Virus record (IMG/VR): IMGVR_UViG_3300031525_000025
Location: 1-30,680 of that record
DNA length: 30,680 nt
Strand: one strand, 5' to 3'
DNA from: a virus
Shown in pieces: positions 3,884-30,642 of the stretch. Position numbers and translations under genes: made by a program. Each line of letters starts with the position of its first letter. Position 1 is the first letter of the stretch. The notes beneath the pieces are model-generated. The model was not told the origin of the DNA, searched no databases, and worked only from the letters and a program-made list of their open reading frames with translations.

Positions 3884-3889
3884 AGTTTA
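3884..3889 (-). promoter_or_regulatory. TAAACT box, minus strand (candidate promoter for sheath operon)
   Basis: TAAACT on the minus strand, 36 nt before the sheath ATG and in mirror position to the plus-strand box at 3901. Together with the flanking base they form AGTTTAG-N9-CTAAACT, a 7-bp inverted repeat. Here a leader with a GGAG site follows, so the box cannot be part of the ribosome-binding signal, which favours a promoter role. Confidence 0.45.
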
Positions 3890-3900
3890 GGCCGAGACTC

Positions 3901-3906
3901 TAAACT
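3901..3906 (+). promoter_or_regulatory. TAAACT box (candidate leaderless promoter for protease gene)
   Basis: TAAACT with six bases to the GTG start at 3913. No Shine-Dalgarno site lies between the box and the start. It forms the right arm of the inverted repeat with 3884-3890. Confidence 0.5.
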
Positions 3907-3912
3907 GGATTC

Positions 3913-4998
3913 GTGCTGCGATACGCGGAGTTTAGAATCGACGGCTCGACGGTTCAGGATATGCCGGACGGCTCTATAAAGGTCGTCGGGCGGTTCGCGC
4001 ATTCGTGCGTCACGGCGTACCGCAATCCGGACGGCTCGGTCCGCAAGGAATATCGGCCCAAGGAAGAGGTCTTCAAACCCGCCTCGATGGCCACCTTCGC
4101 CGGGGCCCCTATTACAATAAATCACCCGGTTATGCCGGACGGCACGCGGCTCGTTACGGCTAATTCGTGGAAGTCGGTGGCCATAGGGCACCTCGGGGAT
4201 AATATCCGCGAGGACGGTGAGCACGTCGCGGCGGACTTCTATATTCGGGACGCCGCCGCGGTCAAGGGCGTGAAGAGCGGGGATTACCGAAAGCTATCGG
4301 CGGGTTACCAAGTGGATTACGACCCCACGCCCACGACGCTGCCCAACGGCGAACGCGTGGACGGGATACAGCGAAATATGCGCGGGAATCACGTGGCGCT
4401 CTGCCCGCCGGGAATGTCACCCCGGGGCGGCCCGTCATGCGAGTTGCGATTGGACGCCGAGGGTAATGAATTGACTGCGCTAAACTCGGGCGTGGATCAA
4501 AACGATATTGACGCCCTCAAGGCCGAAGTCGCTACTTTGAAGAGCGATCTTGACAAGACCCGCACGGACGCCGTCGCCATTACCAAGCTCGAAAAAGACT
4601 TGACCGACGCCCGCGCTGCTTTGGCGGAGTTTACGCCGGAGCGATTGGATGCCATGGTCGCGGACCGCGCGGAAGTTTGCGCCGTCGCCACCGCGGCCGG
4701 GGTTGACCCGAAAGGCAAGTCGACCCTCGCGGTCAAGCGCGCCATCGTGGCCAAGCGCACCCCGCGACTTGCCGAGCGCGTGGACGCGATGGACGCGGCC
4801 TCGCTGGATGCGTGCCTCGCGGTTTACGCCGAGACGCCCCACGCTTCGCTCGCGAGTGCGGTTTCGGTGGTGGTCGCGGATCCGACCCGGACCGACGCCC
4901 AAGCGGACAAGCCGCTGCCGAAATCACACGAACTTTACGAGAAGCACGCTGCGGAGTCGCGGAACGCGTGGAAAAATAAGGGAGACCTCGCTCGATGA
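3913..4998 (+). CDS. Prohead protease with C-terminal scaffold (DUF2213-like)
   Basis: 361 residues from a GTG at 3913. Residues 1-185 match the DUF2213 prohead protease type: FRIDGSTVQDMPDGSIKV, VFKPASMATFAGAPITINHP with the likely catalytic His in NHP, a DYRKLSAGYQVDYD Ser-containing segment and a NHVALCPPG His-containing segment. Residues of about 195-250 form a charged coiled coil (DALKAEVATLKSDLDKTR) and the remainder is helical, as in phage scaffolds fused to their protease. The protein would shape the procapsid and then digest the core. Its stop overlaps the next ATG (ATGA), and decoration and major capsid genes follow. The start is GTG; no ATG alternative retains the N-terminus. An internal start at 4492 may make scaffold alone. 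Confidence 0.85.
   Translation: MLRYAEFRIDGSTVQDMPDGSIKVVGRFAHSCVTAYRNPDGSVRKEYRPKEEVFKPASMATFAGAPITINHPVMPDGTRLVTANSWKSVAIGHLGDNIREDGEHVAADFYIRDAAAVKGVKSGDYRKLSAGYQVDYDPTPTTLPNGERVDGIQRNMRGNHVALCPPGMSPRGGPSCELRLDAEGNELTALNSGVDQNDIDALKAEVATLKSDLDKTRTDAVAITKLEKDLTDARAALAEFTPERLDAMVADRAEVCAVATAAGVDPKGKSTLAVKRAIVAKRTPRLAERVDAMDAASLDACLAVYAETPHASLASAVSVVVADPTRTDAQADKPLPKSHELYEKHAAESRNAWKNKGDLAR
4481..4486 (+). promoter_or_regulatory. TAAACT box inside the protease gene
   Basis: TAAACT with five bases to an in-frame GTG at 4492, the same geometry as at 7313, 8706 and 8981. It falls precisely at the border between the protease domain and the coiled-coil scaffold. Confidence 0.5.
4492..4998 (+). 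CDS. Nested in-frame scaffolding protein (proposed)
   Basis: GTG at 4492 is in frame with the 3913 gene and would give a 168-residue protein starting VDQNDIDALKAEV, which is just the coiled-coil and helical scaffold part. Making scaffold from an internal start inside the protease gene is well known in lambda (Nu3 within C). What is unusual is that a TAAACT box sits 5 nt before the GTG, so a separate leaderless message is possible instead of internal ribosome entry. No Shine-Dalgarno site precedes it. The ratio problem that phages face, much scaffold and little protease, gives the arrangement a clear purpose. This is an inference; the alternative is that the box is chance. Confidence 0.5.
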   Translation: MDQNDIDALKAEVATLKSDLDKTRTDAVAITKLEKDLTDARAALAEFTPERLDAMVADRAEVCAVATAAGVDPKGKSTLAVKRAIVAKRTPRLAERVDAMDAASLDACLAVYAETPHASLASAVSVVVADPTRTDAQADKPLPKSHELYEKHAAESRNAWKNKGDLAR

Positions 4999-5552
4999 CT
5001 GTCATTCAAGGTCAACAGACCTACAATCAGTTTCCCGCATTTGCCCAGCCGGGCATGCTGTCGGATCTGACTTACAACGAAATCCGGATGTTCCCGGCCT
5101 TCGAGGTAATTCAGCCGGGCGTGCTCGTCGAGTTGGCATCGGACGGTCTGTCGTGCATTCAGGCGCAGGAAACCGGCAACACCCCAATCAACACCCAGCT
5201 CGGAATTAGCGTGCTCTTGACAGCTCGCGAGGCCGCGGGCGCTTTCGGTCTGACGCCTTACGGCGTCGGCGGCCCCGCGTACAACATCGGCGATTCGGTC
5301 CCGGTGCTCGTGCGCGGCAGCATCTACGCGGCTTGGTCGGGAACGACTCAGCACGCATTCGGGTCGACGCAGGTCAACTACTACCACTCGTCCACGATCG
5401 CGACGACTCGCGGCGTCTTCACCGACGCGGCATCGTCCGCCACGGTCGGTTCCGAGGTCTCGGTCGCCCCGCACGCCATTCGTCCCCGCCAGGCGCTTCC
5501 GGGCACCGGCAACATCATCCTTCTCGATGTGAACTTCCCCGGCGCTGTTTGA
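4995..5552 (+). CDS. Head decoration or capsid stabilisation protein
   Basis: 185 residues starting MTVIQGQQTYNQFPAFAQPG. The position between protease/scaffold and major capsid genes is where the capsid cement protein lies in phages with this kind of head module. The sequence is Gly/Thr/Ala-rich and beta-prone, with ELASDGLSCIQAQ and YNIGDSVPVLVRGSIY segments resembling cement proteins that carry a small beta domain, and ends in GTGNIILLDVNFPG. The ATG overlaps the preceding TGA, and GGGAG lies about 10 nt upstream. There is no direct motif proof, so another small head protein is possible. Confidence 0.6.
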   Translation: MTVIQGQQTYNQFPAFAQPGMLSDLTYNEIRMFPAFEVIQPGVLVELASDGLSCIQAQETGNTPINTQLGISVLLTAREAAGAFGLTPYGVGGPAYNIGDSVPVLVRGSIYAAWSGTTQHAFGSTQVNYYHSSTIATTRGVFTDAASSATVGSEVSVAPHAIRPRQALPGTGNIILLDVNFPGAV

Positions 5553-5570
5553 TAGGAGCCAACTAGGACC

Positions 5571-6647
5571 ATGCTTTTCAATGAGATTCCCGGCGGATCC
5601 GGACAACGCTTCGACCTGGCGGATTACATCAATCCGCGAGCCCTCGAAGCGGTTTCGGGGCAGCGCTTTGACGCCGCCACCACGGCCTTCTTCCTCCGCG
5701 ACCTCACTGAGGTTTTGGCCCGCACGTACGACGTCAAATACCCGGACCTCAAGGCCCGACAAATCCTTCCGGTTTTCACGGGTATCGACCCCGCGGCCGA
5801 AGGGTACGTTTGGCGACAGTACGACCGCATCGGCGGCGCCAAGGTGATTGACACCTACGGCGACGACCTGCCCTCGACTGAAGTCGTGGCCAACGAGTTT
5901 CAGAGCCGCTGCCTGAGTCTCGGTACGTCGTACCAGTACTCAATTCAGGATCTGCGCAAGGCCCGTATGGCCGGCATTCCCCTCGAGACCCGCAAGGCGC
6001 TCGCGGCCCGGCGCTCGATGGAGCAGGCGATTGAGCAGATCGCTTTCTTCGGCGTGGCTCAGGTCCCCGGCACCTCGGCTTCGCAGGCGATGATGTTCGC
6101 GCCCGCGTCGCAGAACAGCTCGGATCCCCTCGCGATGTACGGCATCACGAACTTCCCCGGGCTCCCCGTCGTGACCGGCACCAACAACTGGACGCTGCCG
6201 TCCACGTCGGTGTCGACCATCGTTTCGGACTTCAACGCCCAGCTGCTGAACATGATTCAGAACAGCAAGGGCATCCACATGCCGGACACCGTCGTGTTTC
6301 CGCTATCGACGTGGTCCAACCTGAATACGATGGCCCGGTCCACCGTGTTTACGGACGACACGGTTCTGCAGTATCTGCAGAAGGAAAACCCCTGGCTCAA
6401 GAATGTGTACTGGTCGACCATGCTGGAGACGGCTGGCCTGAATCAGGCGCAGAACGCGGCCGGCCCGCGCATCCTCTTCATGGAGCGCAACGAGGAAAAC
6501 TTCCAGCTCGTGATTCCGCAGGAGTTCGAGCAGCTTCCCCCGCAAATGGTGAATCTGATGTTCAAGATTCCCTGCCACATGCGCATCGGCGGTCTCCGGG
6601 TTTCGTACCCCAAGAGCGTCCTCGCCTTCGACGGAACGGCTGGTTGA
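5571..6647 (+). CDS. Major capsid protein (DUF2184-like, HK97 fold)
   Basis: 358 residues starting MLFNEIPGGSGQRFDLADYINPRALEA. It matches the pattern of DUF2184 major capsid proteins: an N-terminal arm ending in FLRDLTEVLARTYDVKYPDLKARQILPVF, then YVWRQYDRIGGAKVIDTYGDDLP, a long helix with TRKALAARRSMEQAIEQIAFFGV (spine helix), LNMIQNSKG and PDTVVFPLSTWSNL, and a C-terminal beta part ending MRIGGLRVSYPKSVLAFDG. About 400 copies would build the shell. No N-terminal pro-region of the kind cut from HK97 is obvious, in line with a separate scaffold. An AGGA site precedes the ATG. The assignment is strong from order and pattern. Confidence 0.85.
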   Translation: MLFNEIPGGSGQRFDLADYINPRALEAVSGQRFDAATTAFFLRDLTEVLARTYDVKYPDLKARQILPVFTGIDPAAEGYVWRQYDRIGGAKVIDTYGDDLPSTEVVANEFQSRCLSLGTSYQYSIQDLRKARMAGIPLETRKALAARRSMEQAIEQIAFFGVAQVPGTSASQAMMFAPASQNSSDPLAMYGITNFPGLPVVTGTNNWTLPSTSVSTIVSDFNAQLLNMIQNSKGIHMPDTVVFPLSTWSNLNTMARSTVFTDDTVLQYLQKENPWLKNVYWSTMLETAGLNQAQNAAGPRILFMERNEENFQLVIPQEFEQLPPQMVNLMFKIPCHMRIGGLRVSYPKSVLAFDGTAG

Positions 6648-6650
6648 TCC

Positions 6651-7073
6651 ATGACTGTTACCTCCGGCTTCGGCCAATACCTGGAAAACGCGTGCCTCAA
6701 CTGGTTTCGGGGCACGACTTTCCCCGCGACGGTTGGCGACGTTTACCTCGCGCTTTTCACGACGGCTCCCGTCAACGGCGTAATTGCCGGTTCGACGGAA
6801 GTCTCCGGCAGCTCGTACGCCCGCGTGGCCATCGTGCCGAACACGACCAACTTCGGGGCGCCCTCGGGCGCGGCACCGGCGTCGGCGGTCTCGGGCGCCA
6901 ACTTCGTGTTCCCGACGCCTTCGGGGTCGTGGGGCACGGTCGTCGGCTGGGGTCTTTTCGACGCCTCTTCGGCGGGTAACTTCTTGGCCTACGGCGCCTT
7001 TACCGGCGTGGCGGTCGGCACCGGAGATACAGTCGAGTTCCTCAGCGGAAACCTGACGCTATCGGTGTCGTAA
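6651..7073 (+). CDS. Small virion protein of the phage tail-fibre-like family
   Basis: 140 residues starting MTVTSGFGQYLENACLNWFRG. The pattern YLEN-x-LN-x-FRGTTFPATVGDVYLALFTTAP, TEVSGSSYARVAI, FPTPSGSWGTVVGWGLFDASSAGNFLAYGAF and a final EFLSGNLTLSVS is that of a common small phage family, often annotated as tail fibre or adhesin protein. Such proteins are beta-rich and likely attach to the virion surface. It follows the capsid gene by three bases and is followed after one base by the next gene, so it belongs to the head operon; a head-surface role is as likely as a tail one. The exact role is unknown. Confidence 0.65.
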   Translation: MTVTSGFGQYLENACLNWFRGTTFPATVGDVYLALFTTAPVNGVIAGSTEVSGSSYARVAIVPNTTNFGAPSGAAPASAVSGANFVFPTPSGSWGTVVGWGLFDASSAGNFLAYGAFTGVAVGTGDTVEFLSGNLTLSVS

Positions 7074-7074
7074 C

Positions 7075-7320
7075 GTGGCCACCGACTCCTTTACCTCGTC
7101 GGCGTCCGCGGCATTTACTGGCATCGGTGTTGTTCTTACCGACACCAGCGGCGCGGGCGTTTACACCGCGCACGGTTATTACATCCGTGTCGACGACACG
7201 TACGGCGTGTCGATTTCCAAAGCTCCGAGCTTCGGCGGTGTGCAGGCGGCTTTGACGTTCCCGCAGACTTTGGACAACATGCGGGATTTGGTGGCCGAAC
7301 TTATCAAAGCGGTAAACTAG
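7075..7320 (+). CDS. Hypothetical small virion protein
   Basis: 81 residues from GTG at 7075, one base after the previous stop. The sequence (ATDSFTSSASAAFTGIGVVL ... GYYIRVDDTYGVSIS) is Ser/Thr/Gly-rich and beta-prone with a helical C-terminus (TLDNMRDLVAELIKAVN). I do not recognise the family. Tight packing between structural genes makes it a likely minor virion or assembly protein. Its last codons contain the TAAACT box that precedes the next gene. Confidence 0.6.
   Translation: MATDSFTSSASAAFTGIGVVLTDTSGAGVYTAHGYYIRVDDTYGVSISKAPSFGGVQAALTFPQTLDNMRDLVAELIKAVN
7313..7318 (+). promoter_or_regulatory. TAAACT box before gene at 7324
   Basis: TAAACT overlapping the end of the previous gene, five bases before the GTG at 7324, with no ribosome-binding site between. 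Confidence 0.5.
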
Positions 7321-7323
7321 CCC

Positions 7324-7977
7324 GTGGCCCTTTTAGTTAGGCTGCGCAGTAAATGGGACGAGTGGATCGGCAACGCGGAGATCGATACTCGCGCCACCGG
7401 TTTGGAGAGTCTCGCCGTCGATCAAGTTGCCGCCGACGGGATGGAAATGACCCGGGCGGGTCGCCGATTCATTTGGGGGCCGACCAACGGCGTGACCGGA
7501 CAGGCGCCCGCGACGGCGCTTCCAACGACGACGGCGCAGTGGGTTCTTTGGAACGGGGATCCGTACGACAGCTACGTGATCGATCAACTGGGGGTTCTGC
7601 TGGTCAGTGGGACGGCCGCGGTCGGGACGGTATTACTAGCCGCGCTGGTACAACAGCCCGCAGTGGTCGGCGCACAAGCGACCGGGATGCAAGTGACTTC
7701 GGCGAGCAACGGGGATCACGCCAGCAAAGCGTTGTTCAAAGCGAATGTGACCTTGACGCAGCCGGTGACCCCGAACTGGTGGCCAGCGGCAGCCTTGTAC
7801 AACGTGTCGAGTACGGCGGTATTCACGGTGGGTTGCGAGAACCGGGACTTGCGCGGGCGCTTGATCGTGCCCCCGGGGCAAGGTCTAGCGCTATCCGTGC
7901 TTTCGAGCGGGGCGGGTACGACCCCGTTATTCGCGCCCTACGGGATGCATCACGAGGTCAAACTCGATCTCGAGTAG
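7324..7977 (+). CDS. Hypothetical virion-associated protein
   Basis: 217 residues from GTG at 7324. It starts MALLVRLRSKWDEWIGNAEID and continues as a mixed, beta-rich protein with tryptophans (RRFIWGPTNG, TTAQWVLWNGDPYDSYVIDQLGVLLVSG, NWWPAAALYNVSSTAVF) and a C-terminus with GRLIVPPGQGLALSVLSSGAG and HHEVKLDLE. The PPGQGL...SVLSS section is like the surface-exposed beta domains of phage decoration or fibre proteins. No family is recognised. Its position between capsid and connector genes points to a structural role. The GTG with a TAAACT box 5 nt upstream and no Shine-Dalgarno site suggests a leaderless start. Confidence 0.6.
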   Translation: MALLVRLRSKWDEWIGNAEIDTRATGLESLAVDQVAADGMEMTRAGRRFIWGPTNGVTGQAPATALPTTTAQWVLWNGDPYDSYVIDQLGVLLVSGTAAVGTVLLAALVQQPAVVGAQATGMQVTSASNGDHASKALFKANVTLTQPVTPNWWPAAALYNVSSTAVFTVGCENRDLRGRLIVPPGQGLALSVLSSGAGTTPLFAPYGMHHEVKLDLE

Positions 7978-7986
7978 CCGGCGGTT

Positions 7987-8001
7987 CCGGGATAATCCCG
8001 G
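7987..8001. repeat. GC-rich palindrome CCGGGATAATCCCGG
   Basis: A 15-bp palindrome (7-bp arms around one base) in the gap between two virion genes. As RNA it would form a 6-bp hairpin with a 3-base loop. It may be an operator or hairpin tied to the unusual start of the next gene. Confidence 0.4.
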
Positions 8002-8003
8002 CA

Positions 8004-8702
8004 GTTCTATTCTTTCCGGCGCAAGACAATCTTGCGAGCTCCGCGCTCGCGACGTCGCAAGCGACTACCGCGACGCTATATGTTTCGACCGACGGCGGGT
8101 TTGTTCAAACCGCCCTGGTAGTTGCGACGCCGACGGGAAGTCTCAGCGTATTCGCGTACTTGAATGGCTCGGCGGGCGTTACGACGCAAGCCACTACCGG
8201 TGCGGTGTCGGCGTTCGCTTACTTGGCGGGGTCGAACTTCGTCGATACGTCCGGTACCGCGGGCGCGTTGACCGTCTTTTGTTTGTTCACGGGCGCGGAA
8301 GGCGCGATATTCAACGGCGTCGCTACGCTGACGGTTATCGATCAGTTCGCGTCGTCCGCGGGCGTTGTCGCGTCCGGCACCGCGACTTTGTCTTCGTTCG
8401 CCACTCCGGTCAGCACGGCGTCCGCGGCGGCGTCGCCGGTCGGGGCGCTATCGGTCTTCGCGTACTTGGCCTCCTCGGCGGGCGCGGTGTCGTCTTGCGT
8501 CGGCGTCCCCACTTTCGGTCTCATCGATACGGGCACGGCGTCGGTCGTGACCTCGGCCGCGGGGGTCCTAACGGTGAACGTGCTATTGATCGATAACGCC
8601 GCTGCGGTCATGACGAACACGGCTGTGCTCACGGATTCGAAAAACAACGAGCCTTTTTATATTCTCGATTTTCCCGTGGGTTGCTGGCGGTTGGGCAGTT
8701 AG
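8004..8702 (+). CDS. Tandem-repeat virion protein without a normal start codon
   Basis: 232 residues if begun at GTT 8004. The body is at least six and perhaps eight copies of a unit of about 21 residues: GSLSVFAYLNGSAGV, GAVSAFAYLAGS, GALTVFCLFTGAEGA, GALSVFAYLASSAGA, GVLTVNVLLIDNAAA. Alternating hydrophobic strands and small-residue turns suggest a beta-solenoid or stacked beta domain. No ATG, GTG or TTG lies in frame between the previous stop and the repeats. GTT at 8004 has the spacing (TAATCC plus five bases) that GTG has after TAAACT in its neighbours, and it would align with the start of the related small gene at 8717. The frame is also open behind it, so a -1 shift out of the 7324 gene is possible. 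The C-terminus is FYILDFPVGCWRLGS. Confidence 0.6.
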   Translation, partial: VLFFPAQDNLASSALATSQATTATLYVSTDGGFVQTALVVATPTGSLSVFAYLNGSAGVTTQATTGAVSAFAYLAGSNFVDTSGTAGALTVFCLFTGAEGAIFNGVATLTVIDQFASSAGVVASGTATLSSFATPVSTASAAASPVGALSVFAYLASSAGAVSSCVGVPTFGLIDTGTASVVTSAAGVLTVNVLLIDNAAAVMTNTAVLTDSKNNEPFYILDFPVGCWRLGS

Positions 8703-8705
8703 GAG

Positions 8706-8711
8706 TAAACT
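8706..8711 (+). promoter_or_regulatory. TAAACT box before gene at 8717
   Basis: TAAACT five bases before the GTG at 8717, just after the stop of the repeat protein. Confidence 0.5.
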
Positions 8712-8716
8712 AGAAC

Positions 8717-8974
8717 GTGCCGCATACTGATCTTTTGCAGGGCCAAGCTTTTGCGGCCGCGAGCGGGGCCGGCACGCTTACGGTGTACTTTTATACTTTG
8801 ATTTCGTCGGCGCTGGCGGTTTCATCCGCGGGGGCGGATTTGCCGTACGTGCAGTTCGTCCAAGATTACCCGATCTCCGCGCAATCTATTGTGTTTTTTG
8901 ATACGAGCGTCGAATCGTTCGTCAGTACGATGTCCGCGGTGTCGTCTGGCGTCGGCGTACTCTTCCCGTACTAG
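8717..8974 (+). CDS. Small protein related to the preceding repeat protein
   Basis: 85 residues from GTG at 8717. The section SGAGTLTVYFYTLISSALAVSSAG has the same strand-turn pattern as the repeats in the 8004 gene, so this may be a short paralogue with one or two units. The C-terminus (SVESFVSTMSAVSSGVGVLFPY) repeats the pattern again. Function unknown; a small virion component is likely from the context. A TAAACT box lies 5 nt upstream and no Shine-Dalgarno site is seen at the proper distance, although GGAG lies 10 nt before the start. Confidence 0.55.
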   Translation: MPHTDLLQGQAFAAASGAGTLTVYFYTLISSALAVSSAGADLPYVQFVQDYPISAQSIVFFDTSVESFVSTMSAVSSGVGVLFPY

Positions 8975-8980
8975 GTTCCC

Positions 8981-8986
8981 TAAACT
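8981..8986 (+). promoter_or_regulatory. TAAACT box before connector gene
   Basis: TAAACT five bases before the GTG at 8992. It lies in an 18-base gap between genes, so coding does not explain it. Confidence 0.5.
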
Positions 8987-8991
8987 ACGGG

Positions 8992-9318
8992 GTGGCGACC
9001 CTTTCCCAGTTTCGAGCGGAATTTCCGGAATTCAATGGCGTCTCGGACGGCTTGGTCGCGGCGAAACTTGCTGCGGCGGCGCTGGAAATGGACAATTGCG
9101 TGTGGGGGCAATTCTCTTCTCCCGGGCTTCCGTGTACGAAAGCGGACCAAGGCCAAATGTACTTGGCGGCCCACAAGCTCGCCGCGTCCCCATTCGGGCA
9201 AAACTCCAAGACGGTCACCACGGCGTTCGCGAACAAATCCGGGTACCAGCGGACCACCTACGGCGCCGAGTTCTTCCTGTTGCAGCGCGGTGTAACTTCC
9301 GGTTTCCGGGTGGCATAA
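8992..9318 (+). CDS. Head-tail connector protein (DUF4054-like)
   Basis: 108 residues from GTG. The pattern FRAEFPEFNGVSDGLVAAKLAAAALEMDNCVW followed by GQMYLAAHKLAASPFG is typical of DUF4054 connector proteins, which resemble HK97 gp6 and sit below the portal. The middle and C-terminal parts (NKSGYQRTTYGAEFFLLQR) also fit: members of this family end in a segment where the substrate-free loop GxxYQxTxYGxxFxxL is common. It leads the block of four overlapping neck and tail-completion genes. A TAAACT box lies 5 nt before the start. Confidence 0.78.
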   Translation: MATLSQFRAEFPEFNGVSDGLVAAKLAAAALEMDNCVWGQFSSPGLPCTKADQGQMYLAAHKLAASPFGQNSKTVTTAFANKSGYQRTTYGAEFFLLQRGVTSGFRVA

Positions 9319-14392: not shown

Positions 14393-14611
14393 GTGCTCGC
14401 CGAACATATCGCAATGATCGGGGTCGGACTCACCGTCCTCGCGGGCTTGGTGCAAGTCGTGCGTGGCATGACCAAAGTCGAGGTCACCGTAAAAACGCTG
14501 TCCGTGGCGATGGTCGAAAATACCAAGGCCACCAAGGAAACCGCCGATAAGTGCGCGTCGATTGATTCCCGGGTCTCCCGCCTCGAAGGGCGCATGGGCA
14601 TCGGAGCCTAA
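14393..14611 (+). CDS. Small membrane protein with coiled coil (candidate inner-membrane spanin or holin partner)
   Basis: 72 residues from GTG at 14393, with a GAGGA site 4-5 nt upstream. Residues of about 6-25 form one membrane helix (IAMIGVGLTVLAGLVQVV). The rest is a charged helix with heptad pattern (VEVTVKTLSVAMVENTKATKETADKCASIDSRVSRLEGR). One N-terminal membrane span plus a coiled coil is the layout of i-spanins, and also of XhlA-like proteins in reverse order. It opens the lysis-like cluster that holds several lipoproteins. No family is recognised. Confidence 0.6.
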   Translation: MLAEHIAMIGVGLTVLAGLVQVVRGMTKVEVTVKTLSVAMVENTKATKETADKCASIDSRVSRLEGRMGIGA

Positions 14612-14614
14612 ACT
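14609..14614 (+). promoter_or_regulatory. TAAACT box before gene at 14629
   Basis: TAAACT overlaps the stop of the previous gene; 14 bases follow before the ATG and they include AAGGAG. If transcription starts 6-7 bases after the box, only part of that ribosome-binding site would be in the message. Confidence 0.3.
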
Positions 14615-15565: not shown

Positions 15566-15819
15566 AGGCTAAACTGCACGTAGCAAAAGCTCCCCCGTTC
15601 AGGCGCAGCCTGTTCCGAGGAATGGAAATGGTGAATTCGATGAAAGCAATCCATTGGGTACAAGTCGGTCTCGCCGCGGCCATTGCCGCCGCGCAAGCTC
15701 CGGCGGTCGCGTCCGATCCGACGCTCGGCCCTATCGCCCACGTCGTGTCAGCGGTGGCGGCGGTGGTGCTCGGCCTGCTCGGCCCTTACAGCGCTTCGGC
15801 GTTCCAGGCCGCAAAATGA
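15562..15819 (+). CDS. Small two-helix membrane protein (holin candidate)
   Basis: 85 residues from ATG 15562, which overlaps the previous stop (ATGA); ATG 15628 with AGGA seven bases upstream would give 63 residues and a better fit to a small membrane protein. Two hydrophobic segments follow: VQVGLAAAIAAAQAPAV and IAHVVSAVAAVVLGLLGPYSASA, with a short loop carrying an Asp. Size and two membrane helices match class II or III holins, and neighbours include cell wall enzymes. The first segment is very Ala-rich, so a signal-peptide reading is possible. No sequence match to a known holin is claimed. A TAAACT box lies at 15570 inside the 5' end. Confidence 0.5.
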   Translation: MKAKLHVAKAPPFRRSLFRGMEMVNSMKAIHWVQVGLAAAIAAAQAPAVASDPTLGPIAHVVSAVAAVVLGLLGPYSASAFQAAK

Positions 15820-20199: not shown

Positions 20200-20205
20200 A
20201 GTTTA
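20200..20205 (-). promoter_or_regulatory. TAAACT box, head of accessory cluster
   Basis: Minus-strand GGAGGTAAACTGCACATA directly before ATG 20192. The box is 7 nt from the start codon. It is the only candidate promoter found for the 17.9-20.2 kb cluster. Confidence 0.35.
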
Positions 20206-21030: not shown

Positions 21031-22011
21031 TCACGAGAGCGCCGCCATCCGCTTGACTAGGTCGACGAGGCCAGCGTCCAGTTCGTCACGCACCGACGCG
21101 AATTTGTTTGCTCCCCCCGCATAGACCTCCTCCGCAACTTTGCGGGCCGCCGCGTATTGTTCGGAGTATCCACCGCCCGCTTTCTCGACCTTGTGAGCCG
21201 CATCGAAGATGCGCCGATCGTAGGCGGCGTCGGCGTCGGCGTAGGCGGCGGCGGCGTAGGCGGCGTCGGCGGCGCCGGCGGCGTAGGCGGCGTAGACGTA
21301 GGCGGCGTAGGCGGCGGTGGCGGCGGCGGCGGCGTCGGCGGTGGCGGCGGCGTAGGCGGCGGCGGCGGCGTAGGCGGCGGCGGCGGCGGCGTCGGCGGCG
21401 GCGGCGTAGGCGGCGGCGGCGGCGGCGTCGGCGGCGGCGTAGGCGGCGGCATAGTCGGCGTCGGCGTCGGCGGCGTCGGCTTTTTTGTACTTCTCTCGGA
21501 TGCGTTGCCACGCATCCTCGCGAAGCTTGTAGCAGTCATTACATACAGCCACGAGAGCCGGTTGTCCAGCGTCAAGCGAGACCGGCGAATCGACAGGCGC
21601 TAGCTGCGCGAGCGTGTCCGCGCATTTGTGCGCATTTGCCTTTCGCAACAACGCCGGCAACGCTACTCGATACGCCCAGTCTGCGGCCATCCACACACGG
21701 CGTTGTTCGACTGCTTTGCTCGTGCGGGTATTGAGCGGCACTGTTCCAATCGCTCGTAGCACCCGGGTACGCCGCGCATCGGCTTCGGCTCCGCTTCCGC
21801 ATCTGTCATTGAACCGCAGGAGCACATTGCGAATGCTCGGACAGACGCATGAGGGCGCGTCCGACCACGGCTCGCCTGCGCACCACGCGTACAACTCCAT
21901 AATGCACGCGGCGTCCGGCGGTGTCCCGTTGCCGCTCTTGGCGTGTGCACCATACGTCGGCGTAACCTGAATGGCCTTGGCCCACCGCTGCTCAATGCTA
22001 TTGATGCTCAT
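21031..22011 (-). CDS. Protein with long Ala/Tyr/Asp low-complexity helix
   Basis: 326 residues. Residues 1-175 are ordinary: MSINSIEQRWAKAIQVTPTYG, a Cys-containing part (MELYAWCAGEPWSDAPSCVCPSI) with helices, then VAVCNDCYKLREDAWQRIREKYKKA. Residues of about 178-265 are almost purely Ala with Tyr or Asp at intervals (DYAAAYAAADAAAA and similar), predicted as one long amphipathic or all-surface Ala helix. A charged helical tail follows (AAHKVEKAGG, AAARKVAEEVYAGG). The repeat uses almost only GCC, TAC and GAC codons. Function unknown; possible roles are a spacer rod or surface binder. It lies directly behind the terminase gene, where a portal gene would often be, but it does not look like a portal. 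Confidence 0.65.
   Translation of the reverse strand: MSINSIEQRWAKAIQVTPTYGAHAKSGNGTPPDAACIMELYAWCAGEPWSDAPSCVCPSIRNVLLRFNDRCGSGAEADARRTRVLRAIGTVPLNTRTSKAVEQRRVWMAADWAYRVALPALLRKANAHKCADTLAQLAPVDSPVSLDAGQPALVAVCNDCYKLREDAWQRIREKYKKADAADADADYAAAYAAADAAAAAAYAAAADAAAAAAYAAAAAYAAATADAAAAATAAYAAYVYAAYAAGAADAAYAAAAYADADAAYDRRIFDAAHKVEKAGGGYSEQYAAARKVAEEVYAGGANKFASVRDELDAGLVDLVKRMAALS
21221..21480 (-). repeat. 260-bp GCC/TAC/GAC triplet repeat
   Basis: Nearly uninterrupted GGC-type triplets on the plus strand (GCGGCGTAGGCGGCG...), coding for Ala, Tyr and Asp on the minus strand. All changes keep the triplet phase. Such tracts expand and shrink by slippage, so length should vary among relatives. Confidence 0.85.
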
Positions 22012-22030: not shown

Positions 22031-23491
22031 TCAGTCGAGGTCTATGTAACCGAGCTTCTTGCGAACTTTTTCCATCGCCGCGCGCAAATAGCTAGTGTTC
22101 TCTTGCAGGTACAACAAGGCTTGCGTCATCGCGTCGACTTGGTCGTCGTGCTTTCCTCGGGGAAAGGACAACACTTCGGGTATGAATGTAGCGTCAACCC
22201 ACGGGGCGATGGCCGGGTCGGGCAAGAACACGTTACCGGCCTCGAAAAAACCCGAGCATGCAGCTGCTCGCGAATGCTTTCCACCGCGCGGATCAACTGC
22301 CACAAGACCGGGTACCGCTTCCGACAACATTTGTAACACACCTGAACCATTCGCTTTATCCTCGATGAGTACGGTACTTGGTAAATTGCCACACACTTTG
22401 CGCGAACGCAACTCCAAAATGCTTCGTAACGTGGTCGGAAAGGAAAAGTGTCCGTAACTTTGCGCAATAAGGTAGAAGTGTACCCCGCATCGACCCCAGA
22501 CCTGGCCACACACGAAGTCGGAGGTCTCCTCCGCTTTGAAGGCGCAATCCCATGAGCAAACGACGTGATCAAACGTCGCCGGCAACTCCTTGTAGAACTT
22601 CAGATGTTCGCGACGAAACACCGCGCCGCCCTCGGGCACGGGGTTTTGGTCGAGCTGCGCCGCCGCGTTGATTCCCCCGAGGTTACGCCGGATCTCATCC
22701 ACCAAGCGCTTCGGCATGCGTATCGGGTCGAGTAGCTCCCCCACCGCGACCCGCGGGTCCGCGCCCCACTTCGTGGTAGTCTTACGCGACGGGTCGTACT
22801 CGGCGGGCAAGCACACATGCACCGCCCCGCGGTCTAGGAGCGTTTGAGCGAGGTCGCCGCAGTGCAAACGCTGCATGATGCACACGAGCGCGTTGACCTC
22901 GGGCGGCCGGCGCCAGCGCGTGTCGAGCGTACGGTTGAGCCACTCCACGGTATTCTGGAGCCCGACCTTCGTGAGCTCTTCCGGCTTATTAGGATCGTCG
23001 AGTAGTTGCACGTTGGCATGGAAGCCGGTCACTTCGCCTCCGGGGGTCGTGCCGAGCCGAAACCCGCCCTTGTCGTTTTTGATGAGGTCAATAGTCGGCA
23101 CGGTCGGGAGCTTGAAGCGGTCGCCCCAGCGCTGCTGAAACCACTTGGATTGCATGAATTGCAGCGTTTGGCCAGCGTCGCGGCGCACCAGCTTCTGCCC
23201 GTAAGCCGCGTGGATGATCGAGAAGTGCGGGTCGCGCACCCACATCCACGCCGGGAACACCACGCAAGTCAAAGACGACTTGCCGCCGCCCGGAGGCAGG
23301 TTCACCACGAGCTCGCGAATCTCGCCTTTGAAGCACGCTTCGTAATGCTCGGTCAAAAGGCCGTAGTGAAAGTTGTCGACGAAGGGCGACGACGGATAGA
23401 TCGCGGACCAGACCAGCTTCACGAAGTCGTAAAAAGAGCCTTCGAGGCCGGTGACGCGGTCGCACGCGATGAGGTCCGATTCGAGGGTCAC
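22031..23491 (-). CDS. terL: Large terminase subunit
   Basis: 486 residues from GTG 23491, overlapping the previous stop by GTGA. ATPase domain: Walker A PPGGGKSS at 66-73, then IIHAAYGQKLVRRDAGQTLQFM, and Walker B VQLLDDPNKPEE at 161-172. Nuclease domain of RNase H fold: Asp315 in SWDCAF, Glu377 in IEDKANG and Asp450/Asp453 in KHDDQVDA. The enzyme packages DNA into the prohead and cuts it. Length is normal for the family. The following gene is not a portal and no small terminase is recognised next to it. The call is firm from the motifs. Confidence 0.93.
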   Translation of the reverse strand: MTLESDLIACDRVTGLEGSFYDFVKLVWSAIYPSSPFVDNFHYGLLTEHYEACFKGEIRELVVNLPPGGGKSSLTCVVFPAWMWVRDPHFSIIHAAYGQKLVRRDAGQTLQFMQSKWFQQRWGDRFKLPTVPTIDLIKNDKGGFRLGTTPGGEVTGFHANVQLLDDPNKPEELTKVGLQNTVEWLNRTLDTRWRRPPEVNALVCIMQRLHCGDLAQTLLDRGAVHVCLPAEYDPSRKTTTKWGADPRVAVGELLDPIRMPKRLVDEIRRNLGGINAAAQLDQNPVPEGGAVFRREHLKFYKELPATFDHVVCSWDCAFKAEETSDFVCGQVWGRCGVHFYLIAQSYGHFSFPTTLRSILELRSRKVCGNLPSTVLIEDKANGSGVLQMLSEAVPGLVAVDPRGGKHSRAAACSGFFEAGNVFLPDPAIAPWVDATFIPEVLSFPRGKHDDQVDAMTQALLYLQENTSYLRAAMEKVRKKLGYIDLD

Positions 23492-23700
23492 CCGAACCTC
23501 AACGGCGGCCCGACCGGCAACGTGGGCTCGAACGTCTTGATTAGCACGACCGCGTACACGGCCGCGTGGCGCGTAGCGGAAAACACCTTCGCGCGCGAAA
23601 CCGCTTCCTCATACGTGTCGTAGGCCACCAGACCGCCGGGGCGCACCACGATGTACCGCGCGGGGTTACCGTTTTCTAATATCGCGGCTGGACTCGACAT
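23488..23700 (-). CDS. Small hypothetical protein between sigma factor and terminase
   Basis: 70 residues: MSSPAAILENGNPARYIVVR, then DTYEEAVSRAKVFSATRHAAVYAVVLIKTFEP. This is a compact beta-alpha-beta protein of a kind frequent in phages. Its start lies inside the last 35 bases of the sigma gene and its stop overlaps the terminase GTG, so it bridges both. No family is recognised. It is too small for a usual small terminase. Confidence 0.55.
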   Translation of the reverse strand: MSSPAAILENGNPARYIVVRPGGLVAYDTYEEAVSRAKVFSATRHAAVYAVVLIKTFEPTLPVGPPLRFG

Positions 23701-24328
23701 ACTGTTTCGCTGCTTCCTGCAAGTCGGGCCTCCGACCGCGCCAAAAGTCTTTCGTTTCGGTGGGGGTGAGCTTTTTCAAATACCTTCGGAGTGACCGCAT
23801 GTCTCGCACGGAGTCCATAGCGGCCTCCGGCCCGTCGTCGGGGTCGCGCTCGTCGGCGATTTCGTCAAGCTTGTCTTCCCCCACAAAAGTCGCAGACGCG
23901 CGCAAAGAGCGAAGTGCTGCCGCTGGACTGATGCCCACTTCCTCGGGATCAGGGTATCGACCGTAACGGGCAAAAAAAGCTGCAACGGCTTCCTGTTTAG
24001 CACGCGGAAGGTCAGCCGACTTAGGTCTCGAAACGGGCGTCGCGTGACGCACAACCTGCTGCATTTCATGGAGTTGCCACCAATAGCATATCGTGCTGAA
24101 TTCGCCTTTTTTCGGGTCCCACTTGTCGAGCGCGCGGATCACACCGATGCGCGCCGCTTGGTAGATATCGTCCCGCAAGTGCTCGACGTAATAGCGCGTG
24201 GATTGCAAGAAGTCGCGCGCGAATGTCTGCACCAAAGGCTCTTGCGAAACGATCATTTCTTGCAAAAGGCGTGCCCGGGTCACGCCGACCGAGTCTTTCC
24301 ATCGCAACCACGTGTCTAAGAAAGGCAT
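23666..24328 (-). CDS. Phage-encoded sigma-70-family sigma factor
   Basis: 220 residues from ATG 24328; a TTG at 24337 is a weaker option. Region 2 is clear at about 48-95: LRDDIYQAARIGVIRALDKWDPKKGEFST then CYWWQLHEMQQVV, matching the core-binding and -10-melting helices (the usual form being FSTYA-xWWI-xQ). Residues 97-145 resemble region 3 (GRYPDPEEVGISPAAALRSL). Residues 178-219 resemble region 4, with LKKLTPTETKDFW and an HTH-like LQEAAKQYVESSRDIRKR. It would steer host RNA polymerase to phage promoters, probably those of the late genes. It lies next to the terminase and is itself preceded by a GACTGCCCC element. The region 2 match is strong; the sequence is divergent elsewhere. Confidence 0.8.
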   Translation of the reverse strand: MPFLDTWLRWKDSVGVTRARLLQEMIVSQEPLVQTFARDFLQSTRYYVEHLRDDIYQAARIGVIRALDKWDPKKGEFSTICYWWQLHEMQQVVRHATPVSRPKSADLPRAKQEAVAAFFARYGRYPDPEEVGISPAAALRSLRASATFVGEDKLDEIADERDPDDGPEAAMDSVRDMRSLRRYLKKLTPTETKDFWRGRRPDLQEAAKQYVESSRDIRKR

Positions 24329-24342
24329 AAGGCTCAAACATA

Positions 24343-24351
24343 GGGGCAGTC
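24343..24351 (-). promoter_or_regulatory. GACTGCCCC element, copy 2, before sigma factor
   Basis: GACTGCCCC then TATGTT, 14 nt before the sigma ATG. It lies in the 38-base gap behind the 24367 gene, which is not coding except for a possible longer start. Confidence 0.5.
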
Positions 24352-27761: not shown

Positions 27762-29777
27762 TTATTCCTCAATTACTGGGGCAGTCCACGGGATTAGCCG
27801 ACCGTCGGTCCCATACACGGGTTCGGCCTTTTTGGACCACACCGACATCAACTGTGGGGTAAGCCGAACCGGCACGCGCCCGAGGTATACATTCGCCCCC
27901 GCCATCATAACCCTTCCGAGTTCCACCGCGGCTTCGGGGGCAACTGCTTCGGCGCTTTCGATAATCAGCTCATCATGAACAAACGCCACCACCCGAGAGC
28001 CGTACAGCGCGGACCCCGGTTCGACGTAACACGCGCGCGTCACGCGCCACAACGCCTCCTTGGCCGCGTCCGCACCCAGCCCTTGGAACCGCCCGTTGCA
28101 CAAGGCGGAGTACCGCGAGCCGCCGCGCAACCGCTTGGTGAACAAGTGGATTTCAGTCCCTAACTTGTCCGGGTTGTTCGTGGCCATCGAAGCGAGGCGG
28201 AAGAACTCGTTCATCTCCGGGAAGCGCTGGAGCCACCGGGCTTTGTACTGCCGGGCTTCCTCGATGGTAATGTGCACACCATAGGACGCCTTGGCGTATA
28301 GGGCGAACTTCTCCGCGCCGAGACCCCCCGGCAAACCGAAGTTCAACGCCTTCGCGCGCTGACGCCACTCCTTCATTTCCGGGTCGTGCGCCTTGTGTCG
28401 AGCGAGCGCGTCGTCGTACGTGACACCCATCAGGTCGGCCGCCATGGCCAGGTGGACGTCTTGGCCGGCGTTGAGCGTGTCCGCCAAGTGCGACCACCCT
28501 ATGACCTCGAGACACCACGCGGCGAGCGTGTGGAGCTCCAAGCCCTCGAAGTCCGCTTGCGCGAACACGGTCCCCTGGCGCGGACGGAAAGCCTCGCGGA
28601 TGCCGTGGCCGCGGTTGATCGCTTGGATGTTCGGCTTCGTCGCGCGCGTGCGACCGGTCTCGGCCAAGCCGTAACGGGGTTGAATCGGTACGTCGCAACC
28701 CGCGCGGAGCATTTCGATGTCGTTGGACAAGGTTTTTCGCACCCTTTGAAATCGGGAGTACTTGCACACCGCGTCCGCGGCGTCGCTCAAGTTGTCCAGG
28801 TCCCCGTCTTCCTCCGGATCGAACCGCGCGCACGCCTCAGCGGATAGCGACACCGCGCCCTTCTTGGTCGCCATCGTCGGCACGCCCGCTTCTTCGCATG
28901 CCCGGATCATCCACTCGCGGGCTACGGCAATGGTGGCGGACCCGTCTGGCTTGACGATACCCAATTGCTGCAACTCGAACGTGAGCCCCGCGAACTCCGC
29001 CTCGAGCACGACGGCGAGCTTTTCGACGGCGTCGGCGTCGGTGTACAAACCCCAGCACGACGACAAGTGCAGCGCGAACGCGGCACGCGCCTGGCGGAAT
29101 TGATCCGAGTACAAGTCCGCGTAAAAAGTGCCGGCGCTGTCTTGCGCGTCTTTGAGCTGGTACGTGTTCGTCGCGTCAGCCAACGCGTACTCGGTAGCTT
29201 CCGATACCGTCGACGCCAAAAGCCCCGCGCGGTCTTCGTCGGTCGGTATGGCGATCGCCCATTCGGGCCACCGAGCGGCGCGACCGTCCGCCATGAAGTG
29301 CATTGCATACTCCGGCCACTCTTCGACATTCGGCACTTGATCGAAACACCGGTAAAAAAGCCGCCACCCCTCCTTTTTGAGGTTACGGCCAAAGTGCCGG
29401 CGAATGCAATCCGCCAAGGAGTATTTGACCGGCAGCCATTCGTCCCCTACCTGTTCCCGGCGAAAAGTGCCAACCGCGATGCGCAACAGCTGTTCGCGCA
29501 GCATCGTGTCCGTAATCTCGTCCCGGTCGTACTTCGCGAAGATGAGCGGGAGCAGGTCCGGCCACTGCGCCGCGATAACCCCCATATCGTAGGCCACATT
29601 GTGACCGACTAGCGTGTCCGACCCGCGAAGCCACCCTTCAACCGTTGCCCGCGCACGGTCCCGGTGGAGGATTTGCGGCGAGCCGCCGTCGACGGACCAT
29701 TGTACGCACACCAGCGGGGGCGCCATACAGCCCGGCTCGATGAGCCAAGTCTCGGAGTCGAACGAGATTACGGACAA
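27762..29777 (-). CDS. DNA polymerase I-type (family A) with 3'-5' exonuclease domain
   Basis: 671 residues from TTG 29777, chosen because GGAGG lies 5 nt upstream; no ATG or GTG is available in the true frame. Exonuclease: SFDSET (Asp7, Glu9), TLVGHNVAYDMGVIA and YALADATNTYQL, the DEDD set. Polymerase: motif A FAQADFEGLELHTLA, motif B RQRAKALNFGLPGGLG, motif C VAFVHDELIIE. The segment GLAETGRTRATKPNIQAINR before motif A is the usual TGR-type DNA-binding loop. Motif B has Pro-Gly where Pol I has Ile-Tyr, a variant I recall from some phage enzymes. There is no 5'-3' nuclease domain. It replicates the phage genome. A terminator-like hairpin lies just upstream, so expression may depend on read-through. 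Confidence 0.92.
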   Translation of the reverse strand: MSVISFDSETWLIEPGCMAPPLVCVQWSVDGGSPQILHRDRARATVEGWLRGSDTLVGHNVAYDMGVIAAQWPDLLPLIFAKYDRDEITDTMLREQLLRIAVGTFRREQVGDEWLPVKYSLADCIRRHFGRNLKKEGWRLFYRCFDQVPNVEEWPEYAMHFMADGRAARWPEWAIAIPTDEDRAGLLASTVSEATEYALADATNTYQLKDAQDSAGTFYADLYSDQFRQARAAFALHLSSCWGLYTDADAVEKLAVVLEAEFAGLTFELQQLGIVKPDGSATIAVAREWMIRACEEAGVPTMATKKGAVSLSAEACARFDPEEDGDLDNLSDAADAVCKYSRFQRVRKTLSNDIEMLRAGCDVPIQPRYGLAETGRTRATKPNIQAINRGHGIREAFRPRQGTVFAQADFEGLELHTLAAWCLEVIGWSHLADTLNAGQDVHLAMAADLMGVTYDDALARHKAHDPEMKEWRQRAKALNFGLPGGLGAEKFALYAKASYGVHITIEEARQYKARWLQRFPEMNEFFRLASMATNNPDKLGTEIHLFTKRLRGGSRYSALCNGRFQGLGADAAKEALWRVTRACYVEPGSALYGSRVVAFVHDELIIESAEAVAPEAAVELGRVMMAGANVYLGRVPVRLTPQLMSVWSKKAEPVYGTDGRLIPWTAPVIEE
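27778..27786 (-). promoter_or_regulatory. GACTGCCCC element, copy 3
   Basis: GACTGCCCC then AGTAAT, 18 nt before the 27759 start. This copy codes for part of the polymerase C-terminus (WTAPVI), so coding and signal coincide. Confidence 0.45.
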
Positions 29778-30633: not shown

Positions 30634-30642
30634 GGGGCAGTC
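30634..30642 (-). promoter_or_regulatory. GACTGCCCC element, copy 4
   Basis: GACTGCCCC followed by GGTAATT, 13 nt before ATG 30620 and preceded by AATTACCAC. Upstream similarity to copies 2 and 3 (AAT-C-CC) extends the match beyond the core. Confidence 0.5.

Follow-up and report, generated by a model that had tools for sequence, protein, structure and literature searches.

Virion genes in the window, as the whole stretch of 30,680 nucleotides (nt) analysed here is called (positions 1 to 30,680 of IMG/VR record IMGVR_UViG_3300031525_000025), are very probably transcribed from a single-element late promoter, the hexamer TAAACT, usually present as C-TAAACT, from which the message would start at or near a GTG start codon, with an internal copy of this element serving a scaffold and with a phage-encoded sigma factor as the likeliest reader. 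The window covers part of an uncultured tailed phage whose tail is contractile. Its plus-strand genes from 3913 onwards encode a head protease (DUF2213), a cement protein, the major capsid protein, a DUF4054 protein and others, while the minus strand carries leftward the sheath and another structural gene and, further right, terminase, a sigma factor and DNA polymerase A. Five plus-strand copies of TAAACT, proposed in an earlier note as candidate leaderless late promoters, are confirmed with exact coordinates at 3901, 4481, 7313, 8706 and 8981, and a GTG follows them after 6, 5, 5, 5 and 5 bases, respectively (hereafter N6 and N5). The copy at 4481, which had been taken for an ordinary gene start, was misread, as it lies inside the open reading frame (ORF) 3913-4998 and precedes the in-frame internal GTG 4492. 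These boxes, the divergent box next to the first of them and the genes that they precede are:

3884 to 3889, minus strand: divergent TAAACT box, 36-nt leader with GGAG, then the tail sheath ATG 3847
3901 to 3906, plus strand: TAAACT box, N6 to GTG 3913 of the head protease-scaffold ORF
3913 to 4998, plus strand: head maturation protease (DUF2213) fused to a scaffold-like C-terminal domain, GTG start (Pfam DUF2213, 1.7e-34; PHROG 530, 3.5e-65)
4481 to 4486, plus strand: internal TAAACT box, N5 to the in-frame GTG 4492
4492 to 4998, plus strand: predicted separately initiated scaffold-like protein of 168 amino acids (MDQNDIDALKAEVATLKSDLDK...) with a coiled-coil-like start; conserved in-frame internal start, putative scaffold role
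7313 to 7318, plus strand: TAAACT box overlapping the stop codon of the upstream gene, N5 to GTG 7324
7324 to 7977, plus strand: virion-region gene without a PHROG match, candidate leaderless GTG start
8706 to 8711, plus strand: TAAACT box, N5 to GTG 8717
8717 to 8974, plus strand: small virion-region gene, candidate leaderless GTG start
8981 to 8986, plus strand: TAAACT box, N5 to GTG 8992
8992 to 9318, plus strand: DUF4054 virion structural protein (Pfam, 3.3e-10; PHROG 302), candidate leaderless GTG start

That such sites were picked out by eye from a chance clustering might be suggested by the 4096 hexamers possible in a 31-kb window and by the stop codon within TAAACT, which favours gene junctions. 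When the count against shuffled sequence was made, five occurrences of TAAACT-N5/6-GTG stood against 0.33 expected, with five or more in none of 100 dinucleotide shuffles and a maximum of three per sequence among 1000 first-order Markov sequences. Since any hexamer might have struck a reader's eye, all 4096 hexamers were scanned on the sense strand between -40 and -1 relative to 47 curated starts, the coordinates of which are off by 1-2 bases in a few cases. TAAACT ranked first upstream of starts, with six of its 11 copies falling in 2.7% of positions (p=1.5e-7, or about 6e-4 once corrected for 4096 tests), the next non-overlapping hexamer having a p of about 4e-4. None of the 11 copies lies in the replication half (20.2-30.7 kb). 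The list of five was incomplete, in that further sense copies near other starts, at 3889 (minus strand), 14609, 15570 and 20205 (minus strand), had been missed; besides the divergent sheath box these are:

14609 to 14614, plus strand: TAAACT box at a gene junction, N14 to ATG 14629 with AAGGAG; a weaker candidate, because RNA that starts 6-7 nt past the box would lose part of the Shine-Dalgarno (SD) site
15570 to 15575, plus strand: candidate TAAACT box at the junction before the ATG cluster 15622-15640, leader with GAGGA
20200 to 20205, minus strand: candidate TAAACT box, N7 to ATG 20192 of a 22-codon ORF

Relatives were found in IMG/VR by searches with the capsid, the terminase, the minus-strand structural gene (1828-2262) and the sigma factor, and a search with the protease protein alone yielded nothing. 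A nucleotide search of isolated phages gave no match, the best identities in protein searches were about 30% for the capsid and 38% for the terminase, and capsid plus terminase alignments across 84,980 genomes in a search for the host did not recover a relative. TAAACT itself did not seem enriched in the first relatives; the picture changed after reading upstream of homologous genes, where a box stands at the same positions with letters that differ by lineage. TAAACT is the box of the window, G015, G016 and G017; TAAAAT that of G001, G004, G006, G007, G008, G010 and G019, recurring as CTAAAAT-N5-GTG in the first five of these; TAAACC that of G011 (as CTAAACC); TAGAGT or TAGACT that of G002 and G012 (as CTAGAGT/CTAGACT); and TACCTT or TATCTT that of a more distant group, G037, G039 and G046 (L145, L147 and L155), in which CTACCTT/CTATCTT stands mostly at N6 before ATG or GTG. 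Between lineages the letters vary, and within each they are largely uniform. The protease-scaffold homologue has its own box at the start in G001, G002, G003, G004, G010, G011, G012, G016, G017, G019 and G046, and the homologues of the DUF4054 gene read CTAAAAT-N8-ATG (L001) and CTAAACT-N12-ATG (L003). In unbiased scans made record by record, the record's own box was the top or a near-top hexamer in G000, G001, G004, G007, G011, G037, G039 and G046, though not in a number of short fragments and not in G002, G003 or G012. Pooled over 13 records, an open-ORF RTG (ATG or GTG) follows at N5 for 30 of 103 copies of TAAAAT and TAAACT, whereas the other 73 permutations of their letters have it in 23 of 2148. 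The outgroups G013 and G014, which serve as a negative control, have ordinary SD hexamers instead (AGAGGT, AGGAGA). Given that TAAACT comes first among all hexamers after correction and that the pattern is reproduced at homologous genes of other phages with different hexamers, a chance origin has a negligible probability; it was rejected on the two-box protease genes described below, on the N5 permutation counts and on the synonymous-codon shuffle. The comparison strengthens three proposals of the earlier note, namely a message that would start at the GTG, the lack of a -35 and presumably late genes: relatives carry their own boxes at the same spacing before the same genes, the pooled sites described next show no -35 signal, and related boxes also serve leadered genes with an SD.

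The structure of the box was derived from 89 pooled sites, the spacing counts taking in seven sites of G009. A C stands directly 5' of the hexamer in 79 of the 89 sites and a G before that in 58. Any position further upstream of this GC-TANNNT box carries at most 0.15 bits, hence there is no -35 element among these sites, and the lack of a shared -35 remarked on for the five original sites now extends across relatives. Among GTG starts, 29 are at N5 and 11 at N6, together 40 of 44, whereas ATG starts are spread over N5-N13 and SD-bearing leaders place the start codon further downstream. Divergent box pairs recur at the sheath/protease junction in G001, G002, G003, G004, G011, G012, G016 and G017. 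Eight records have a leader of 17-36 nt between the divergent box and the sheath start codon, each with an SD-like site. These back-to-back boxes are only about 5-35 bp apart (3884-3906 in the window and homologous junctions in many records), so that simultaneous binding of two polymerases is hardly possible.

The distance to the start codon is fixed and a normal SD site is lacking at the GTG starts of the window (an SD match is absent at four of the five, and the AGGA at 8717 counted for the fifth is upstream of TAAACT and would stay outside the transcript). UAAACU could on these grounds be a translation signal, an alternative SD or an S1 site, at N5 from GTG. Such a signal is very improbable and was rejected: leadered genes, many of them with an SD of their own and the divergent sheath gene among them, have related boxes 14-38 nt upstream; the spacing to ATG is loose; and the hexamer changes wholly between lineages, from TAAACT to TACCTT, and is extended by a GC upstream. 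With GTG at N5-6, ATG and SD leaders further off and a separate SD in the sheath leader, the comparison of sequences indicates that the box is a promoter rather than a ribosome site. Spacing of N5-6 would put the first RNA base on or beside the G of GTG, by analogy with the 8-bp T4 late box, which precedes its start by about one helical turn (PMC2988020).

The record's own box at the start of the protease ORF together with a second one before an in-frame internal start about 190-210 codons on is present in 11 records (G000, G001, G002, G004, G010, G011, G012, G016, G017, G019 and G046). A looser TANNNT precedes the internal start in G003 (TATACT) and G007 (TACAAT), and the in-frame start is kept in 13 records in total. 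Shuffling of synonymous codons gave p=0.009 for the internal box in the window and 0.0007-0.07 per record, with a summed log10 p of -22 for the 11 records, a value that overstates independence due to shared ancestry, yet the letters differ between lineages and match within each. Encoded residues alike in several records would also fit a peptide, L-N/K-S-G-V, conserved where protease and scaffold meet, in place of a promoter. We regard this as highly unlikely, since the residues vary (LNSGV, LKSGV, LKSFV, LKYDSM, LNPGM), the internal box follows the promoter letters of its lineage, including the different hexamer TACCTT in G046, and the synonymous-codon shuffle tells against it. The C-terminal part of the protease ORF, which has a coiled-coil-like start, is probably a scaffold, judging by the protease-scaffold gene plan of lambda C/Nu3. 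In lambda, Nu3 is encoded in frame within the 3' part of the protease gene C. Nu3 is the lambda scaffold (PMC3224144). Both plans would have a separate scaffold, in frame with the protease and encoded by the 3' part of its gene; unlike in lambda, the separate product here appears to arise from its own internal promoter and a leaderless start.

The candidate reader and the gene that anchors its position are:

23666 to 24328, minus strand: phage sigma factor, candidate reader of the box; region 2, region 4 not recognisable
22031 to 23491, minus strand: terminase large subunit (PHROG 38, 5e-80), near the sigma gene and used as gene-order anchor

The sigma factor matches Sigma70_r2 (9e-8) and no other Pfam family at E<=1, its best PHROG being 351 (5.8e-15). 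Sigma70_r2 alone, with region 4 absent at E<=1, is also found in the sigma factors of G003, G004 and G005. An AlphaFold model (pLDDT, the predicted local distance difference test, of 75) matches solved sigma factors, with a C-terminal end formed by one long helix in a shallow alignment, and seven aligned sigma sequences, read by eye, all terminate within the would-be first part of region 4. Orthologs are present in most of the longer relatives with boxes. They were recovered from G003, G004, G005 and G007, with Sigma70_r2 matches in G017 and, weakly, in G046; in the ortholog of G009, region 4 is matched weakly (0.032, below the cut-off). A sigma factor without region 4 fits a promoter without a -35 element, as argued for phiEco32 gp36 (PMC8948821). 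The link of the boxes to this sigma factor, drawn in the earlier note, is thus plausible as far as an encoded sigma without recognisable region 4 goes; that it reads the box is what we infer as likeliest, with a host sigma as rival.

According to that rival, the boxes are ordinary TANNNT -10 elements read by the host primary sigma at leaderless genes, as in Actinobacteria and Deinococcus-Thermus, and the phage sigma is employed otherwise. In Deinococcus the host's own pattern is TANNNT 6-7 bp before the ORF (PMC12340547), M. tuberculosis has TANNNT without a conserved -35 (PMC3898074), and every box variant except TAAACC fits TANNNT. However, beyond TAAACT the window offers a single TANNNT at N5-6 in front of an open RTG, where control spacings average 6.3, hence the inner bases matter. 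Free inner bases, the mark of host sigma-70 TANNNT leaderless promoters, are thus not found in the window, although G009 does show them. Moreover, the inner bases and the upstream GC are fixed per lineage, and the boxes stand mainly at virion genes. Reading by a host sigma is rather unlikely on this evidence.

Several observations nonetheless weigh against the favoured reading. G009 (48060 bp) has 22 generic TANNNT at N5-6 before RTG, counted beyond its top hexamer TAGCCT, against a control of 7.9, and other TANNNT are in mild excess at N5-6 in G017 (9 against 5.3) and G007 (11 against 6.4); a host sigma reading TANNNT would give the same. In the 35-kb fragment G037, which carries boxes, no sigma was found. 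Six of the 11 TAAACT copies of the window are outside the N5-6-GTG rule, and antisense copies at 3929-3934 and 4628-4633 (minus strand), inside the protease-scaffold gene and without a fitting ORF, are unexplained. Lastly, all records share ancestry and p-values that assume independence come out too small. With its weak region 4, generic TANNNT and no single fixed box, G009 may, as a conjecture, represent an ancestral, host-like state.

In the preferred mechanism, a polymerase with the phage sigma touching only the -10 region would open the DNA at the box and RNA would start about six bases past it. Where GTG is at N5-6, RNA would begin on the GTG or within one base of it and would be translated leaderless, and where the start codon is more distant, the same box would yield a short leader, often with an SD, as for the tail sheath. 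The box inside the protease ORF would give a second message from the in-frame GTG, encoding only the scaffold domain, and the scaffold could thereby outnumber the protease.

Such an arrangement is best filed as a variant of late transcription of the T4 gp55 or phiEco32 gp36 type. T4 late genes are leadered, and their activation involves the sliding clamp gp45 and the co-activator gp33. In common with T4 gp55 late promoters (PMC2988020) there are a lone element of about 8 bp in the -10 region, the lack of a -35, late virion genes and a sigma-family reader with region 2 and without region 4, here as a candidate. T4 differs in having an 8-bp TATA box, unlike the GC-TAAACT-like box abutting GTG described here. 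Middle and late promoters of phiEco32 gp36 (tAATGTAtA) are likewise a single element whose absent -35 is ascribed to a region-4-less phage sigma, but the motif and genome type are different, and the portions available of both sources (PMC4331800, PMC8948821) report neither a leaderless arrangement nor an internal scaffold promoter. Leaderless TANNNT genes of Deinococcus-Thermus and Actinobacteria (PMC12340547, PMC3160421, PMC3898074) share a -10 a few bases before ATG or GTG, usually with no conserved -35; those elements are loose and recognised by the primary sigma of the host, whereas each phage lineage here has fixed inner bases, and phage virion genes are served. In the literature searched, which was covered in part, no description of phage late promoters abutting GTG starts was found.

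Within the virion-gene region, the frame 8004-8702 looks coding, yet no ATG, GTG or TTG lies near its beginning (region 7978-8702). Upstream of it is TAATCC-N5-GTT, like a box-N5-GTG with a changed start codon; a sequencing error, an unusual start or a -1 frameshift from gene 7324-7977 are candidate explanations. Elsewhere, GGCGGCGTAGGCGG-type tandem repeats at 21237-21480 give a low-complexity stretch in the minus-strand ORF 21031-22011. The sequence GACTGCCCC occurs exactly four times, on the minus strand only (1811-1819, 24343-24351, 27778-27786 and 30634-30642), 13-18 nt before ATG and followed by an AT-rich NRTaaTT-like stretch, with the sigma factor and a tail chaperone among the genes served. 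It is possibly a second (early/middle) promoter or operator class, and relatives showed no enrichment of it.

On balance, we lean towards a myovirus-like phage family in which virion genes are placed on one-box promoters fused to leaderless GUG starts and read by a region-4-less sigma, such that the box drifts with the sigma while its positions are fixed and the internal box sets the scaffold-to-protease ratio by transcription. Leaderless translation in E. coli is strictly AUG-dependent, in contrast to M. tuberculosis, where ATG and GTG are used alike in leaderless and leadered genes (PMC3898074); E. coli handles leaderless GUG poorly, and the host, which the arrangement implies to translate leaderless GUG, probably belongs to a leaderless-tolerant group. 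If true, the phage's own late promoters would set the transcript start on the start codon, joining one-box sigma promoters with leaderless translation, and the internal box predicts a transcriptional route to an excess of scaffold over protease. For annotation, the box would help to place GTG starts in these phages and to reveal internal genes hidden there; its variants at homologous genes, together with matching sigma factors, would constitute a natural series from which to learn how region 2 reads a -10 box.

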